From: Enterococcus faecalis 13-SD-W-01
GTDB lineage: Bacteria > Bacillota > Bacilli > Lactobacillales > Enterococcaceae
Direction: 5' to 3'
Length of the DNA stretch: 32,762 bases
Assembly (NCBI GenBank): GCA_000415185.1
Contig: KE351646.1
Span: forward strand, 319,711-352,472
Shown: in pieces, positions 708 to 29,117 of the stretch
How positions within the stretch are numbered: position 1 is the stretch's first letter
Layout of the letters: every line of letters begins with the position of its first letter
Program-made: the position numbers and the translations under genes
The notes under the pieces: model-generated
What the model was told of the DNA's origin: nothing
What the model saw: only the letters and a program-made list of their open reading frames with translations
Databases searched by the model: none

Positions 708-1949
708 ATGCATACTTATCAATTTTCAGCAAATCCAAATCAACCTATCAATAAGCGAGCTTTGTCTTTTGGGCTCTTTTCTGTTTTTCTTTGCGGCATC
801 GGTTTTAGCATCATCAATCCAGTTGTTCCGTTTTTAGTTAGCCCTTATGTCCATTCAACAAGTCAGCAAGCCTTTTTCGTTACACTATTATCATCTGTTT
901 ATGCACTTTGTTTATTTTTTGCCTCGCCGATATTAGGAGCATTGAGTGATAAATACGGCAGACGTCCGCTGCTGCTGATTTGTCTTTTAGGCTCCGCTGT
1001 TGGTTATCTTATTTTTGGCTTAGGCGGCGCACTTTGGATACTGTTTGCTGGACGAATCATAGAAGGGATCACAGGTGGAAGTATTGGAACGCTTTTTGCC
1101 TATTTCTCAGATATTCTTCCTCCAGAACAGCGGACAAAATATTTCGGTTGGGTCAGTGCATTTGTAGGCGCTGGAACGATTATTGGACCAGCAGTTGGCG
1201 GTTTATTGGCTAAGTTTGGTTACCCAGTGCCGATGTACGTTGGTGCGGCAGTCACATTATTAAATGTTTGTTATGGGTATTTCTATATGCCGGAAAGTTT
1301 AGCTAAAAATCGTCGTTCTCAAAATCTTTCTTTAAAGAAACTCAATCCTATCCATCAGTTTTCTGGTATTTTGTCTATGAAAACATTGCGGATCTTACTT
1401 CTTTCTGGTTTCTTATTGTGGATACCAAGCGGCGCACTACAGGCTGTTTTTTCTCAATTTACGATGGATGCCTTTCATTGGAAACCAGTTATTATTGGCT
1501 TGATGTTTTCGATTATGGGCTTTCAAGATATCTTTTCTCAAAGTCTGATCATGCCTCAGCTTTTGAAGAAATTCAGCGACAAGAAAATTGCACTTTTTGG
1601 CATGGGAGGAGAAGGTCTGGGTTATTTGTTCATTGCGTTATCTGGGATTTATTCTTTTTATCCATTGTTTATTGTCGGAATGTTTCTTTTCGGCTTCGGT
1701 GATTCGATTTTCGGTCCATCTTTCACTGGGATGCTTTCAAAAAGTGCCAGTCCGGATGAACAGGGACGAATCCAAGGAAGCAGTCAGTCGATTCAAGCAT
1801 TAGCCAGAATGATTGGTCCCATACTTGGCGGACAACTCTATATCTCAGCAGGAAATTTTGCACCTGCGCTGATGGGTGTTTTGTTGATGATTGCAGCAGC
1901 TGGTATTTTGAAGAAATTCAAAGAAAGTGCGTTTATTCAAGAAGGTTAG
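708..1949 (+). CDS. MFS drug-type efflux transporter (DHA1-like, 12 TM)
   Basis: A 413-residue membrane transporter with about twelve hydrophobic segments in two halves. MFS motif A is visible as GALSDKYGRRPL (residues ~77-88) between TM2 and TM3, and the antiporter motif C as GAGTIIGPAVGG in TM5, which points to proton-coupled export. The start ATG at 708 follows AAAGGAG at good spacing. It is transcribed alone from a consensus-like promoter that carries a possible MarR operator, and it ends at a terminator shared with the converging kinase gene. Substrates cannot be read from the sequence; multidrug export is the family expectation. Confidence 0.85.
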   Translation: MHTYQFSANPNQPINKRALSFGLFSVFLCGIGFSIINPVVPFLVSPYVHSTSQQAFFVTLLSSVYALCLFFASPILGALSDKYGRRPLLLICLLGSAVGYLIFGLGGALWILFAGRIIEGITGGSIGTLFAYFSDILPPEQRTKYFGWVSAFVGAGTIIGPAVGGLLAKFGYPVPMYVGAAVTLLNVCYGYFYMPESLAKNRRSQNLSLKKLNPIHQFSGILSMKTLRILLLSGFLLWIPSGALQAVFSQFTMDAFHWKPVIIGLMFSIMGFQDIFSQSLIMPQLLKKFSDKKIALFGMGGEGLGYLFIALSGIYSFYPLFIVGMFLFGFGDSIFGPSFTGMLSKSASPDEQGRIQGSSQSIQALARMIGPILGGQLYISAGNFAPALMGVLLMIAAAGILKKFKESAFIQEG

Positions 1950-7025: not shown

Positions 7026-7535
7026 TTAAGAGACGATTTTAAGTTCATCTACATAGGAGCTTTGAGCGATTGTCGCATCATCTGTAAAGACCAGGATACT
7101 GAACTGTTTTTCTTTCACAAGCAATTTCAAAATCGTCAAAATTTCTTGGATTTCAGGAATCGTCAACTGGTCAAATACTTCTTCTAAAAGAAGCTGCTTT
7201 TTGTCCGCAATCAACGAGTGGAGCAGCTGGAGTTTGATTTTTTCCAAAAGTGTCAGTTCCTGTGCCTGTTTTGCCAAAGTCTCTGAAGAAAGTTTCAAGC
7301 AATCGAGATAAGCAGCTGTTTTTGCATGATTCTTTTTCTCTTTTTTACCAGAAGTATTCAAGAATACTTGATCTTTCAAAGAGAGATAAGGGAAAAGCGG
7401 CCATTCTTTTTGGATGATCACTGTTTTTGAAGGCTGTTCTTTTAACACTTTTTTTCGTGCTTCAGCGAGTATGTGCTGCTGCAGGCGAAGAGGACACAAC
7501 ACAACAGATAAACGATGGTCAAAAGGGATATCCAT
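7026..7535 (-). CDS. Degenerate ABC-ATPase-like protein lacking catalytic motifs
   Basis: About 169 residues that align by pattern with the middle and C-terminal parts of an ABC ATPase. IIQKEWPLFPYLSLKDQVFL resembles the Q-loop region, LTLLEKIKLQLLHSLIADKK stands where LSGGEKQRVALARAL would be, QLLLEEVFDQL stands for the Walker B LLLDEPFDQL, and ILVFTDDATIA for the H-loop TTHD. There is no Walker A and the SGG, Walker B Glu and switch His are all replaced. It overlaps the permease gene by a few bases after AAAGGAG (GTG 7538 or ATG 7535). Reading frame and ribosome site are intact, so it may be a structural or regulatory partner rather than a pump motor. Confidence 0.6.
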   Translation of the reverse strand: MDIPFDHRLSVVLCPLRLQQHILAEARKKVLKEQPSKTVIIQKEWPLFPYLSLKDQVFLNTSGKKEKKNHAKTAAYLDCLKLSSETLAKQAQELTLLEKIKLQLLHSLIADKKQLLLEEVFDQLTIPEIQEILTILKLLVKEKQFSILVFTDDATIAQSSYVDELKIVS

Positions 7536-25123: not shown

Positions 25124-25211
25124 GGAAGGTTGGCAGAGTGGTAATGCACCGGACTCGAAATCCGGCGAGCCGGTTTATACTGGTGCACGGGTTCAAATCC
25201 CGTACCTTCCT
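25124..25211 (+). tRNA. tRNA-Ser (CGA)
   Basis: Class II tRNA. The acceptor stem GGAAGGT/ACCTTCC pairs perfectly, the anticodon arm is CCGGA-CTCGAAA-TCCGG with anticodon CGA, a long variable arm (GAGCCGGTTTATACTGGTGC region) follows, and the T arm is ACGGGTTCAAATCCCGT. CCA is not encoded, and the discriminator position reads T rather than the usual G of tRNA-Ser. The 3' end (from 25202) belongs to the repeated att core of the downstream element, so this gene is the integration site. Confidence 0.95.
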
Positions 25212-25314: not shown

Positions 25315-25677
25315 CTAGTTTTCGAGATAATTCATTACTTGGTCTACATTCTCACGTTTTCTTTTCTCAGTAACATGGATGTATAAATCACTAGTAATCT
25401 CGATTGATGAATGGCCTAAACGATCGGAGACATCTTTTAAGGTTAAGCCTGACTCTAGCATCATAGTCGCTGCAGTGTGACGTAATCCGTGCAATGTGAT
25501 TCTTCTTAATCCATTTTGTTTAAGGATTGTATGCAGCCATTTTTGAGGAGTGGCCAACTCGATGAATGAATTGTCCTCTAAACTAGAAAAAACTAACTGA
25601 TGATCGCCGATAGAGTTGTGACCAAATTTAAGTAAATCTTTTCTTTGTTGTATTCGCCACTGCTTTAACATATCCAT
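25315..25677 (-). pseudogene. Tyrosine integrase, 3' fragment
   Basis: Encodes the C-terminal ~120 residues of a phage-type tyrosine recombinase that is normally ~370-390 residues long. The catalytic HGLRHT (His-x-x-Arg), the LGHSS box and nucleophile Tyr (SDLYIHVT) are present. The N-terminal arm-binding and core-binding domains and the first catalytic Arg are missing. The open frame extends upstream only to a TAA at about 25727, and the homologous part seems to begin near 25700, exactly at a 14-bp sequence found inverted at 28441. An internal GGGAGG could start a short product, but it would not be an active integrase. Confidence 0.8.
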
Positions 25678-25760: not shown

Positions 25761-26708
25761 TTAGTTTTTATTCTCGTCAATCGATATATTTTTTTTCTCT
25801 TTAATAAATTCTGAAGCAAGGTGAACGAATAGCTGTTTCGTTGTATCGGATAAATTTAATTCATCTTTATTGTCACTTTCTCCAGAATGATACCATAGTG
25901 AATCATCTTTGCGAGAAATTAAAACAGTTAGCTGTTCAATATTACTTTTTTTGTCGGAATACTTTGTTTTTAGATTTTTAATTTTATCCCTTGTATCATT
26001 TAATATTTTATTTAATTCGTCTTTTAGTTCATCATCGATAGAGCTTTCGTAAGTATGAGCAATCAATATTGTATCAGAATTAATCAATTGCATTATTTCT
26101 TTTTCCTGCTCCTTAGGCAAAAAGTGGACTGTCTTTAAAAAATTTTTTGTTACAGGTATTTGTATTTCATCTGGAAAATCTGCATAACCATTAATATCAT
26201 CGGTAGATGGAATATTATGATACGTATTTGTAATTAAATTTTGATTTGTTTTGACTTCCTCCCTATATCGGCCTACTAAATCCCATTCTAGCCATTTATA
26301 AAGAAAACTTTTATTTTCAAGAGATTGCCAATCTGTGTTCCATGCAAGTGCTGGGACTGTAAAATAGCGTCCCATTGCTTGCTGTAAGATACTATCTAAA
26401 TCATCTGTGTTGAAATATTCTAGAGCTTTTCGAGTTTCTTTGTCTAAGTCATCATCGGAAAGATAAGATTGATAAACCTTCTTAGCGATATTTAAGGCTT
26501 TTTCTTCGCTCATTTTTTGATCATTAACGCCCATTAAGTAGCCGATAGAGACGTTAAAGTAGTTGGCTAGTTTTTCCCAGGTTTCCTTTTTTGGCTCGCT
26601 TTCACCATTTTCATATCTATTAAGGGTAGAACGTGGTATACCTAGCTTAGCGCTTAAATCGACTAAAGTAATTTTATTTTCTTTCCGCATTTCTTTTAAC
26701 CTGTTCAT
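25761..26708 (-). CDS. Phage-type XRE (cI-like) repressor without S24 peptidase domain
   Basis: A 315-residue protein. The N-terminal XRE helix-turn-helix (residues 4-58: KENKITLVDLSAKLGIPRSTLNRYENGESEP) is typical of lactic-phage repressors and is followed by YFNVSIGYLMG. The C-terminal ~240 residues are acidic and unrecognised, with a possible coiled coil (~225-270). The self-cleaving S24 peptidase of classical cI is not seen, so induction would work differently. The gene reads divergently from a cro-like remnant across an intergenic region with two matching operators. ATG 26708 follows GAAAGGA. Confidence 0.8.
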   Translation of the reverse strand: MNRLKEMRKENKITLVDLSAKLGIPRSTLNRYENGESEPKKETWEKLANYFNVSIGYLMGVNDQKMSEEKALNIAKKVYQSYLSDDDLDKETRKALEYFNTDDLDSILQQAMGRYFTVPALAWNTDWQSLENKSFLYKWLEWDLVGRYREEVKTNQNLITNTYHNIPSTDDINGYADFPDEIQIPVTKNFLKTVHFLPKEQEKEIMQLINSDTILIAHTYESSIDDELKDELNKILNDTRDKIKNLKTKYSDKKSNIEQLTVLISRKDDSLWYHSGESDNKDELNLSDTTKQLFVHLASEFIKEKKNISIDENKN

Positions 26709-26743
26709 TAGAAAAATCCTTTCTTAGAAATATTCTCATAGCT

Positions 26744-26772
26744 AGACTACAGCAAATTTTACATAAAATCAA
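26744..26772 (-). promoter_or_regulatory. Candidate repressor-maintenance promoter
   Basis: On the minus strand TTGATT (26772-26767) and TAGTCT (26749-26744) are 17 bp apart, about 36 bp ahead of the repressor start. Confidence 0.45.
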
Positions 26773-26778
26773 ACTCAA

Positions 26779-26795
26779 TTCCCAAAAAATGAGAA
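26779..26795. promoter_or_regulatory. Repressor operator O1 (predicted)
   Basis: TTCCCaaaaaatGAGAA, an inverted repeat with one mismatched pair. It shares CCCAAAAAATG with O2; centres are 28 bp apart. Confidence 0.6.
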
Positions 26796-26801
26796 AATGC
26801 A

Positions 26802-26830
26802 TTGACATCCCAAAAAATGGGAATTATAAT
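26802..26830 (+). promoter_or_regulatory. Rightward promoter with operator O2 in its spacer
   Basis: Perfect TTGACA (26802-26807) and TATAAT (26825-26830) are 17 bp apart. The perfect palindrome TCCCAaaaaaTGGGA (26808-26822) fills the spacer, so a bound repressor would block polymerase. Confidence 0.85.
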
Positions 26831-26894
26831 TAATTTATAGTATCTCGATAATTGGGAAAAAGAGGGGGTAACAAAGTTTTAAATTGATAAAGAA

Positions 26895-27071
26895 ATGTAC
26901 GCAAAGACTCGTGAGCGCCGAGCACGTAAGAATACTACGTTAGAAGCTGCTGCTTGCGAGATTGGTATTTCAGCTAAAACTTTGAGAATGATAGAAAATG
27001 AACAAATTCTATCCATTCGAAAAACAGACGCCCTTTTTGGTGGAAAATGTTCAGTAGGGAATTTTTTGTGA
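26895..27071 (+). pseudogene. Cro/XRE-like HTH remnant
   Basis: A frame of 58 codons starting MYAKTRERRARKNTTLEAAA and continuing CEIGISAKTLRMIENEQ, a recognisable helix-turn-helix of a Cro-like regulator. The expected second half (helices 4-5) is replaced by unrelated sequence before TGA at 27069. The strong AGAGGGGG ribosome site (26861-26868) is 26 bp from this ATG, and an in-frame stop lies just upstream of it, so both ends look damaged. It lies where cro should be, under the rightward promoter. Confidence 0.5.
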
Positions 27072-27116
27072 GTTTACAGCTTGAAACGTTTTGACTTCTG
27101 TTAAATTATTCTATTA

Positions 27117-27146
27117 TTGTAAAGAGTTAAAACGTAATGATATAAT
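27117..27146 (+). promoter_or_regulatory. Promoter of the abi gene
   Basis: TTGTAA (27117-27122) and TATAAT (27141-27146) are 18 bp apart, with an extended -10 TGA before TATAAT. The leader is about 75 nt and begins near a hairpin GACTTA/TAAGTC (27147-27164). Confidence 0.7.
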
Positions 27147-27227
27147 GACTTAGAAATATAAGTCTATGAATTATAGAGAAAATTGATTAAAAGTAACATG
27201 AGACTTAATGGGAAAGGTATTTAAACT

Positions 27228-28220
27228 ATGGATGAAAATGCCAAACGAGAATTAAATACGATAAAAGAAACATTGGAAATAAATATGAAAGAAGAAGCTA
27301 TAAAGCGACATCCCAAAGCTTCATTTGAAGATCTTATAAATGAATTGTCTATGAAAGGCGTTAAATTCAATGTAATGAGTGAAAATAACGCAAAAGATAT
27401 CCTGAATGATTTAAATTATTACTATAAGTTATCTGTCTATAGGAGGAATTTTAAAAGAGATTTAACTGGAAAATATATAAATTTAGAGTTCAGTTATTTG
27501 GCAGATTTAGCTAGTGTTGATATGCAACTAAGATATTTACTTTTAACTGCTACTCTGGATATAGAACATGCTATGAAAACTTTTTTAATTACCCATATTA
27601 CTGAAAATGAAGAAGTAGACGGATATGCTATAGTTGATAGATTTTTTCATTCTACAATAGGTACTGAATACGAGTTAAATAAGGTAACTGTTTTAGAAAA
27701 AGTTAAACATAAAAGTCATTATCAAAGAAAATTGTATGAGGCTCATAAAGATGCACCTTCTGCCTGGGTTCTTGTCGAAATAATGAGTTTTGGAGAATTT
27801 ATAAGATTTTTTGAATTTTATTTTAAAAAATATCCAACTCCTAAATTTGATTTTTCTATCATGAGTGGGTTGCTAAATGCTGTAAAAAGGATTAGAAACT
27901 GTTGTGCTCATAATAATGCTTTCTTGTTTTACATGAGTAAAAATGAGTTGAGACATCCTAATAGCTATGTTGTAGCATATGCTGAAAAAGCAAAAATAGG
28001 GAAAGCATTTTATTTTTGTGCTAAAGTTCATGATATTATTGCAGTTTTATACACTCATAATTTTTTTGTTAAAGGGATAGGTTCTAGAAAGTATCGGCAT
28101 AAAGAATTATCAGACTTAACTGATAGAAGCATTGAACGATTTAAATGTTTGGATAAAGATAATGATATTGTTTATTTTTTTGGAATATTAAAGAAACTAC
28201 TTAACTCTTATCACGTTTAG
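27228..28220 (+). CDS. Abi_2 (AbiD/AbiF) family HEPN abortive-infection protein
   Basis: A 330-residue soluble protein of the Abi_2 family, known for abortive-infection phage defence in lactococci. Family landmarks: the N-terminal ILNDLNYYYKLSVYRRNF (~58-75), DMQLRYLLLTATLDIEHAMKTFL (~98-120), the SAWVLVEIMSFGEFIRFFEFY block (~178-198) and the HEPN ribonuclease motif RNCCAH (Arg223-x4-His228). HEPN proteins of this kind usually cleave RNA and arrest growth, so control is needed. It has its own extended -10 promoter and GGGAAAGG ribosome site. A promoter-terminator unit for a small RNA begins 11 bp after its stop. That and the mobile setting make a toxin-antitoxin-like defence role likely, though unproven. 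Confidence 0.85.
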   Translation: MDENAKRELNTIKETLEINMKEEAIKRHPKASFEDLINELSMKGVKFNVMSENNAKDILNDLNYYYKLSVYRRNFKRDLTGKYINLEFSYLADLASVDMQLRYLLLTATLDIEHAMKTFLITHITENEEVDGYAIVDRFFHSTIGTEYELNKVTVLEKVKHKSHYQRKLYEAHKDAPSAWVLVEIMSFGEFIRFFEFYFKKYPTPKFDFSIMSGLLNAVKRIRNCCAHNNAFLFYMSKNELRHPNSYVVAYAEKAKIGKAFYFCAKVHDIIAVLYTHNFFVKGIGSRKYRHKELSDLTDRSIERFKCLDKDNDIVYFFGILKKLLNSYHV

Positions 28221-28231
28221 TAATTTATCTC

Positions 28232-28261
28232 TTGACAGGGATAAAAAAGAATTGGTATGAT
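28232..28261 (+). promoter_or_regulatory. Promoter of the candidate small RNA
   Basis: A perfect TTGACA (28232-28237) and TATGAT (28256-28261) are 18 bp apart, right after the abi stop. Initiation is expected at about 28268. Confidence 0.7.
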
Positions 28262-28267
28262 GTATAC

Positions 28268-28373
28268 GTAGAAACAACGTGTAGGAACGTTGGGCGTGGA
28301 TGGATTTATTCAGAAACGTTTAAACACTTTTATTATGAAGGTGTTAACCCCAAAAGGTTAGCTCCTTCTTTTT
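28268..28373 (+). ncRNA. Candidate small RNA downstream of abi
   Basis: A predicted transcript of about 105 nt. Hairpin 1 is CAACGT/ACGTTG around GTAGGA (28275-28292). A linker follows, with an AGAAAC repeat (28270 and 28312) and overlapping palindromes AAACGTTT and GTTTAAAC; it ends in a strong terminator stem. No start codon with a ribosome site lies within it; a 64-codon frame crossing it would begin at the TTG of the -35 box. Placement next to an Abi_2 HEPN gene suggests an RNA antitoxin or guide-like partner. From memory, recent work links AbiF proteins to adjacent non-coding RNAs; I could not compare structures. Confidence 0.55.
28337..28373 (+). terminator. Terminator of the candidate small RNA (and abi)
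   Basis: GAAGG.GTTAACC pairs with GGTTAGC.CCTTC (12 pairs, one mismatch, one G-U) around a 6-base loop, followed by T5. Confidence 0.8.
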
Positions 28374-28407
28374 ATTTAACAAAAAACTGCTTTAAAAATA
28401 TTTATAG

Positions 28408-28424
28408 AAACAGGGAATCTGTTT
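28408..28424 (+). repeat. Small hairpin after the small-RNA terminator
   Basis: AAACAG/CTGTTT around GGAAT, starting within a third AGAAAC (28406-28411). Function unknown. Confidence 0.35.
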
Positions 28425-28440
28425 AAGTAAAGCTATATAA

Positions 28441-28455
28441 AACGCCCCACGTTAG
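28441..28455. repeat. Inverted repeat copy 2
   Basis: AACGCCCCACGTTAG, the complement of 25697-25710 with one extra C. Confidence 0.55.
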
Positions 28456-28469
28456 ATGAAGATTTTTAT

Positions 28470-28490
28470 ACTGAAATTCCACCGCATCTG
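28470..28490. repeat. Right copy of an imperfect direct repeat near the element end
   Basis: Matches 25292-25312 at 18 of 21 positions, about 105 bp inside the right att core. Confidence 0.45.
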
Positions 28491-28594
28491 AGTAAAATGC
28501 ATAGAAATTTCAATAAGCTATTTTTACCGAAACAACTTTATTTCATTAGTTTTTAAAGCTATAGACAAACTTATTAAATGTTTTATTGATTTCT

Positions 28595-28608
28595 GTACCT
28601 TCCTTATA
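28595..28608 (+). repeat. Right att core
   Basis: GTACCTTCCTTATA, identical to the tRNA-Ser 3' end at 25202-25215. Bases to its left do not continue the tRNA. Confidence 0.75.
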
Positions 28609-28619
28609 TAAATCATAGA

Positions 28620-28682
28620 ACAGAGGCGGAAACGTTGCTATACAAGCATTTGCTTGCGATGTTTTTGCCTCTGTACTTTTTT
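28620..28682 (+). terminator. Rightward terminator after the second att core
   Basis: ACAGAGGC (28620-28627) pairs with GCCTCTGT (28667-28674), with inner GTT/AAC and AAGC/GCTT pairing, then CTTTTTT. It mirrors the terminator after the first att copy. Confidence 0.7.
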
Positions 28683-28695
28683 GCCTCCGGTTTGT

Positions 28696-28866
28696 TTAAA
28701 TGCCAATATAGTCGGCAAATTGTGTCGCTGTTTCTTTTTTACGTTTATCAGTAATATGAATATAAAAATCCATAGTGATTTGTATAGAAGCGTGACCCAG
28801 ACGTTCTTGTACATCTTTGATATCTGCACCTGCTTCTAATAGTAAACTATTCTTACGAGCATCTGC
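28696..28866 (-). pseudogene. Second tyrosine integrase, C-terminal fragment
   Basis: Too short to stand out, but the minus strand encodes NSLLLEAGADIKDVQERLGH and then ASIQITMDFYIHITDKRKKE, ending ATQFADYIGI before TAA (28698-28696). LGHAS and the nucleophile Tyr in MDFYIHIT are the last two catalytic boxes of a phage integrase. The HxxR box and everything N-terminal are gone; homology stops at about 28850. It differs from the fragment at 25315, so it comes from another integrase and is not a duplication. Confidence 0.85.
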
Positions 28867-29117
28867 AGAAAATCATCGCTGATGCTGGCAACGAAAGTCG
28901 AGAAGTTGGATTAGCAAATTTATCAGCAGTGTTGCCTAACATGACAGACAATCTACTTGAATCTCTTTTCAATCAACAATAGTTTGAATTTATCTCAGCT
29001 ATCAAAAAAAGTGCAGAAAAGGGAAAGCATCTGGCTATTATTGACTATGCAATTCTAGTGGCTGTAATTGATCAAAGAAAAAATCAATGTCAAATTATTA
29101 ATGAAGTAACGAGATGA
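28851..29117 (+). pseudogene. Unrecognised coding remnant with an in-frame stop
   Basis: One plus-strand frame reads YEHLQKIIADAGNESREVGL and on to LLESLFNQQ, hits TAG at 28980-28982, then continues in the same frame as FEFISAIKKSAEKGKHLAII and on to INEVTR before TGA at 29115. There is no start codon with a ribosome site, and the 5' end abuts the integrase breakpoint. It looks like the 3' part of a gene cut by recombination. I do not recognise it. Confidence 0.4.

Follow-up and report, generated by a model that had tools for sequence, protein, structure and literature searches.

Is the Abi_2 gene of this stretch of Enterococcus faecalis 13-SD-W-01 (contig KE351646.1; the whole stretch of 32,762 nucleotides is called the window) paired with a small RNA that controls its product, and what would copies of such an RNA do in phages? 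An earlier note, made from the letters of the sequence, had proposed an AbiF-family HEPN toxin with a controlling neighbour RNA and a tie between AbiF and Cas13. Our comparative analysis points, quite probably, to an AbiF-like toxin-antitoxin and abortive-infection unit in trailer layout, in which the RNA is the antitoxin and the solo RNAs of phages are mimics of it. We directly observed the gene, the promoter and terminator signals, a covarying RNA structure, linkage to the toxin family, and solo copies in phages whose searched records gave no Abi_2 match; from these we infer transcription, binding, inhibition, the trigger and the anti-defence role.

We assessed the protein by profile, motif and fold. 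It matched Abi_2 (PF07751) in Pfam with an E value of 3.3e-27 and 96.4 bits against a cut-off of 25.6, and the AbiD model of PADLOC with an E value of 5.8e-25. The HEPN motif named in the earlier note, RNCCAH, lies at residues 223-228, and N224 was nearly invariant across the 22 aligned sequences. In a Foldseek alignment the protein had the fold of PbAbiF (PDB 8VZ6) in common, at 17% identity; the PbAbiF-AbiFr system, compared here by the fold of its protein, is discussed in PMC12373285 and PMC12737573, which also propose AbiF-type proteins as ancestors of Cas13.

The self-contained RNA unit described after the gene was largely found again. The consensus scan returned the TTGACA-18-TATGAT promoter, the 6-bp hairpin was confirmed, and the terminator scan returned a hairpin with a T-run (Table 1). 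The absence of a credible open reading frame also held: the sole frame of at least 8 codons in 28262-28376 had 23 codons, starting at a TTG at 28290, and no matching frame was seen by eye at three relatives (L006, L007 and L008). The AGAAAC repeats did not hold up, being one 9-nt near-repeat that was not seen in these relatives. The second hairpin had been overlooked. Because the scanned 2.9 kb contained 18 promoter-like sites against 13.0 expected from shuffles (terminator-like sites, 6 against 0.9), a single promoter match is weak evidence, and conservation is what counts. The 109-nt RNA folded at -30.2 kcal/mol with z -3.2 (1 of 200 shuffles was as good), and the core alone gave z -2.7 against shuffles.

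Table 1. Features of the abi unit, in window coordinates.
Feature	Position	Strand	Basis or remark
Abi_2/AbiF-type HEPN protein, predicted ribonuclease toxin, 330 aa	27228..28220	+	
HEPN catalytic motif RNCCAH, residues 223-228	27894..27911	+	R223 and H228 invariant in 22 aligned sequences
Candidate abi gene promoter TTGTAA-18-TATAAT	27117..27146	+	Consensus scan 10/12; weak, near chance number of sites
Small RNA promoter TTGACA-18-TATGAT	28232..28261	+	11/12; TTGACA at 28232, TATGAT at 28256-28261
Small RNA core, two hairpins, kept with toxin relatives and copied in phages	28268..28325	+	Covariation, model R3, alignment of copies
Hairpin 1, CAACGT/ACGTTG, 6 bp	28275..28292	+	Covariation in toxin-linked RNAs
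Hairpin 2, outer CGT/ACG, inner TGGA/TTCA, loop TTTA	28295..28318	+	Covariation in toxin-linked RNAs
Intrinsic terminator of small RNA	28337..28373	+	Hairpin and T-run 28343-28373 in terminator scan; hairpin in fold

We then compared the RNA with those of close relatives. The protein was matched at E 1e-25 in 35 of the 395 genomes of the order, with L006, L007 and L008 at 46-49% identity. All three toxin genes carried a promoter-like site and then a two-hairpin RNA at the 3' end. The RNA is thus conserved next to homologous abi genes; lack of such conservation was one of the outcomes that the earlier note had named as refuting its proposal. When the four RNAs were aligned, 89.1% of cells were paired (shuffles, 68.9%). 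Two-sided changes occurred in 10 of 14 pairs, a number reached by 0 of 500 shuffles; shifting the partner by 1-3 columns lowered pairing to 30-42%. Hairpin 1 retained all 5 counted pairs in the four toxin-linked RNAs, 3 of them with two-sided changes, and hairpin 2 had such changes in 7 of 9 pairs. Four sequences are a small set, and the signal was spread across both hairpins. These comparisons indicate that the small RNA is real.

The linkage was assessed across 61 intact Abi_2 genes in the fetched loci (genes with identical ends were entered once and related genes retained), with 79 other reading frames from the same loci as the control. Of the 61 genes, 55 had a promoter-like site no more than 45 nt from the stop, compared with 30 of the 79 (Fisher p 1e-10), and the script found none at the remaining 6; TTGAC occurred near the stop at 46 compared with 13 (p 1e-12), and a promoter together with a terminator at 38 compared with 8 (p 5e-11). 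A covariance model built from four distant trailer RNAs without close kin of the window (R1) was run on 59 sources with an E limit of 5; its 13 hits, which include its four seeds, all lay directly downstream of an Abi_2 gene. The five RNA architectures, labelled by eye and not blind, required 4 changes over 57 RNAs on the tree of their 57 toxins (near-copies and L076 left out), the minimum possible, compared with a mean of 26.8 after shuffling; the window and its three relatives formed a single, fully supported clade on a long branch. These results suggest that a small RNA travels with the toxin family, and covariation, linkage and the architectures on the tree together support the proposed toxin, its controlling RNA and the AbiF/Cas13 tie. 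L076 is an exception to this linkage: it has an Abi_2 frame with no visible RNA, and its 3' end looks rearranged by eye.

Alternatively, the RNA might not bind protein but control abi or other mRNAs by base pairing, as a small regulatory RNA or a processed 3' region. Its own promoter and terminator signals would suit such an RNA, and protein binding is itself a prediction; yet the two-hairpin structure was retained despite sequence change, the architectures track the toxin tree, and the corresponding Clostridioides difficile RNA binds protein and acts in trans (PMC12373285), which makes this explanation very improbable.

Next to the toxin-linked RNAs, solo copies of the window-type RNA were found in phages. 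Model R3, built from four close RNAs, gave hits at E 0.1 in 13 of 390 genomes: the four seeds, three solo prophage copies (L128, L129 and L130; E 1.2e-10, 7e-10 and 5e-9), one false hit inside a 690-aa coding frame (L131), and five that were dropped as weak (L132-L136; E 0.048-0.068). The RNA was followed by a terminase small subunit gene in L128 and L129 (Pfam Terminase_2, E 8e-25 and 6e-25) and surrounded by other phage-like genes in L130. There was no Abi_2 match within 1.5 kb of these copies or in the 12-20 kb stretches L145-L147; solo-copy genome G005 had no P0001 match at E 1e-20, and G236 and G316 were not among the 11 of 105 genomes of their family with a P0001 match at E 1e-10. An exact core pattern matched 8 IMG/VR contigs, and BLASTN located the core, 85-90% identical and at places with no annotated feature, in 6 Enterococcus phage records of 134-142 kb. 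In all four of these that were examined (EF1, VRE9_1, VRE9_3 and VRE9_4) the copy lay between tRNA-Pro and tRNA-Asn of a tRNA array. PF07751 was found in none of 12 records, namely these four and the 8 IMG/VR contigs, which are possibly fragments. The other 2 Enterococcus records, and 18 of the 22 Streptococcus thermophilus records described below, do not appear in the set of 15 phage records that matched P0001. The window protein, as a single query against IMG/VR, gave 6 pattern stretches and 0 relatives, and no plasmid copy of the window RNA was found. A hairpin-2 segment is doubled in the RNA copies of VRE9_4 (L150) and VRE9_1 (L151). In some temperate phages the stretch ahead of the RNA looks tRNA-like, but neither ARAGORN nor, on L146, Rfam confirmed this.

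Pairing was maintained in these copies. In an alignment of nine window-type copies, the window's included, 117 of 117 pair cells formed, compared with 96.1% in shuffles, and the covariation score lay above nearly all shuffles; each value was reached by 2 of 500. One inner pair of hairpin 2 occurred as A-U, U-A, G-C or G-U, and the core was invariant at 42 of 58 columns. The copy of EF1 folded with z -3.3 and that of G236 with z -1.9 against shuffles. The viral copies formed four context groups around a core of about 57 nt, two of which have few downstream 12-mers in common, and the 200-nt flanks of the window had no 12-mer in common with those of the 13 viral copies compared. This core, retained amid differing flanks, would delimit the functional RNA, and the window-type phage copies look selected.

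A guide or sensor RNA that directs or activates the HEPN nuclease, Cas13-like, would turn the phage copies into the trigger. Phages should lose a trigger, yet copies occur in several contexts; moreover, the core copies have no variable guide-like part, and the characterised C. difficile RNA inhibits its toxin (PMC12373285). We give this explanation a very slight chance.

A second RNA class may point in the same direction as the window-type copies. The streptococcal trailer RNA L023 had matches in 25 phage records, 22 of them from S. thermophilus hosts; in the 19 S. thermophilus records that are listed, 7 of which duplicate other entries as RefSeq versions, the matches were about 87% identical. 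The other three records have the hosts of Javan427, Javan406 and Javan218, which have P0001 matches. In two of the four records examined, SW7 and CHPC577, TTGACA...TAGAAT precedes the RNA copy and a terminator follows it, and in SW7 a gene for an 'Acr-like protein' lies two genes upstream. PF07751 was not found in the four second-class records searched. AbiD is the commonest accessory defence of S. thermophilus, present in 74 of 263 strains, with narrow activity and a mechanism tabled as 'Unknown' (PMC12322248). By its conservation and context, the second class may play the same phage role.

Taken in sequence, the mechanism would run as follows. The HEPN protein would be a ribonuclease toxin, probably a dimer, and the RNA of about 105 nt would be made in excess from its own promoter just past the toxin gene. 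The RNA would bind the dimer and hold it inactive, a step proposed because of homology with AbiFCd-RCd22 (PMC12373285). Infection may then deplete or outcompete the RNA and free the nuclease, and a phage that brings its own RNA core would keep the toxin inactive; this last step has precedents in pseudo-ToxI (PMC3475682) and the RNA anti-CRISPRs, or Racrs (PMC10651486). Such antitoxin mimics would be sited near packaging genes in temperate phages, in the tRNA array of large Enterococcus phages and, as a second class, in S. thermophilus phages. It is somewhat likely that phages of several lineages, including the large Enterococcus phages (within tRNA arrays) and the S. thermophilus phages (in SW7 near an Acr-like gene), encode RNAs that mimic AbiF-type antitoxins, a class of counter-defence whose members match the toxin classes present in the hosts.

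Another possibility is that the unit is a toxin-antitoxin pair but that the solo RNAs in phages are mere leftovers of Abi units once carried there whole, whose toxin has been lost, and not selected mimics. Three chromosomal loci from genomes of a single genus (L079, L080 and L082, around position 1500) have an RNA with a terminator-like end beside a C-terminal toxin remnant of about 46 aa, and L081 and L089 have RNAs beside other remnants; an RNA that outlives its toxin is expected there if prior loss of the antitoxin is harmful. Phages also carry whole Abi_2 units. Against this origin are the Abi_2 match in 0 of the 16 phage or viral records searched, the four context groups around one core, the pairing maintained where letters differ, the tRNA-array position, and the promoter-like site and terminator that the copies of SW7 and CHPC577 have of their own. 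We therefore consider leftovers unlikely.

Several results nevertheless weigh against the antitoxin and mimic reading. The evidence is computational throughout, with transcript, binding, toxicity and plating as predictions, and the RNAs beside decayed toxins show that solo copies can be leftovers. The 61 genes and 57 tree rows contain related sequences, and two tree groups are weakly supported (76/21 and 57/8). Many viral records are fragments; 3 of the 6 Enterococcus records match across only 59-62% of the query; the nine window-type copies have two-sided changes in 1 pair, compared with 0.8 in shuffles (406 of 500 reach it); and the RNA queries L005, L011, L016 and L036 gave no phage copies at E 0.01. 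The S. thermophilus copy (z 0.08) and the toxin-linked L023 (z -0.32) fold no better than shuffles, so the case for the second class rests on sequence conservation and context. As for the models, R1 ranks the window RNA second in the window, under another site. R2, a general model built from the 13 places of R1, misses it with default filters; a full scan ranks it first within the window, at just 16.4 bits and E 0.04; and in the genome-wide search it is not listed, while five other places score 14.9-21.2 bits. What ties the window RNA to the family is therefore its position and its own clade, and not a significant family score. R3 hits are window-like by construction, the window sequence being among its seeds; a window-free model from L006-L008 was dropped, MAFFT having misplaced the insert of L007.

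Across 198 genomes R2 gave 24 hits. Five lay beside an intact Abi_2 gene, all of them seeds or near-copies of seeds, and six beside toxin remnants (L079-L082, L089, and L087 by its 3' end); L091 and L102 adjoined neither, and the other 11 were taken as chance or coding. L091 (position 1501; R2 E 6.7e-4) is a solo trailer-type RNA near phage-lysis-like genes, with no PF07751 match in its genome.

The earlier note had left open whether the RNA belongs to the class already reported with AbiF proteins, and this was answered in part: RF03085 gave no score, and the layout is opposite to that of the C. difficile upstream RNA. The RF03085 covariance model, of 37 positions, gave no match to the window at the gathering score, to 26700-28800 with an E limit of 5, to L001 with a limit of 3, or, under strict filters and at E 0.001, to the genome that holds the window. 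No Rfam family reached its cut-off over the RNA, so membership was rejected, and a resemblance to the pT181 ctRNA (23.6 bits against a cut-off of 56) was noise. In the phylum sample RF03085 matched 16 of 348 genomes, 7 above the cut-off. An Abi_2 frame followed the RNA in 5 of the 16 loci (L104, L105, L110, L117 and L118), preceded it by about 750 nt in L114, contained the hit in L111 and L113, and was not seen by profile within the stretch in the other 8, five of them above the cut-off. Since five RF03085 loci have Abi_2 after the RNA and the window has the RNA after the gene, leader and trailer layouts both exist. L103, L107, L108 and L109 (position 1501) are above the cut-off with no Abi_2 frame by profile within the stretch, and have divergent partners or are solo leader-type RNAs. 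L036 has a hit below the cut-off (1501-1537, minus strand) ahead of a terminase small subunit gene with no Abi_2 nearby, and its genome has an Abi_2 gene on a separate contig. In L119 (pIL105, about 7290-7400) the leader of Lactococcus lactis abiD1 resembles the RF03085 box by eye, with no score from Rfam, and may be the 50-base transcript of PMC2661086.

Among known systems, AbiFCd-RCd22 of the C. difficile prophage phi027 also joins an Abi_2 HEPN protein with an R...H motif to an adjoining small structured RNA, which binds and neutralises the toxin in cis and in trans, the stems of both abiF motifs being important (PMC12373285). Its RNA is the upstream, terminated leader of the toxin mRNA with two RF03085 motifs, whereas that of the window is downstream and has its own promoter. 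AbiD1 of L. lactis pIL105 is likewise an Abi family protein, but its 50-base transcript terminates just upstream of the gene, and the available portion of PMC2661086 does not mention a trailer unit. The tandem repeats typical of a type III system of the ToxIN kind are absent from the window RNA; ToxN had no entry among the matches listed, a list that is not proof of absence. Covariance models exist for AbiF RNAs (PMC12804078) and may or may not cover the window RNA. Pseudo-ToxI of phage PhiTE is also a phage-encoded mimic of an RNA antitoxin, although it mimics ToxI repeats while the copies here match a two-hairpin AbiF-type RNA (PMC3475682); Racrs are also solitary viral copies of a defence RNA, often near other anti-defence genes, but mimic CRISPR repeats and not an Abi antitoxin (PMC10651486). 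No report of phage mimics of AbiF-type RNA appeared in literature titles and abstract openings, a weak absence with most subscription literature outside that scope. For a large Abi_2 group, the trailer RNA would supply an antitoxin that is simple and open to test. Neutralisation by RNA alone is what the solo copies in phages suggest; it could help explain how some phages escape Abi_2 systems, and mimicry, if true, would extend the pseudo-ToxI precedent to a second antitoxin family.

A second Abi_2 gene in the window's genome (L005, G000:C53:69972-70916) is 36% identical and has a trailer RNA of different architecture, and the two units in one genome offer a natural test of pair specificity. 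Around the abi unit, a tRNA-Ser at 25124-25211 is followed by a short integrase-domain reading frame (25315-25677) and a helix-turn-helix protein (25761-26708), and a second integrase-like stretch was seen by eye near 28700-28870; the abi unit thus seems to lie within a mobile element that has decayed. A promoter-like site on the plus strand at 26802-26830, intergenic and perfect at 12 of 12 positions, lies ahead of a degenerate short reading frame.
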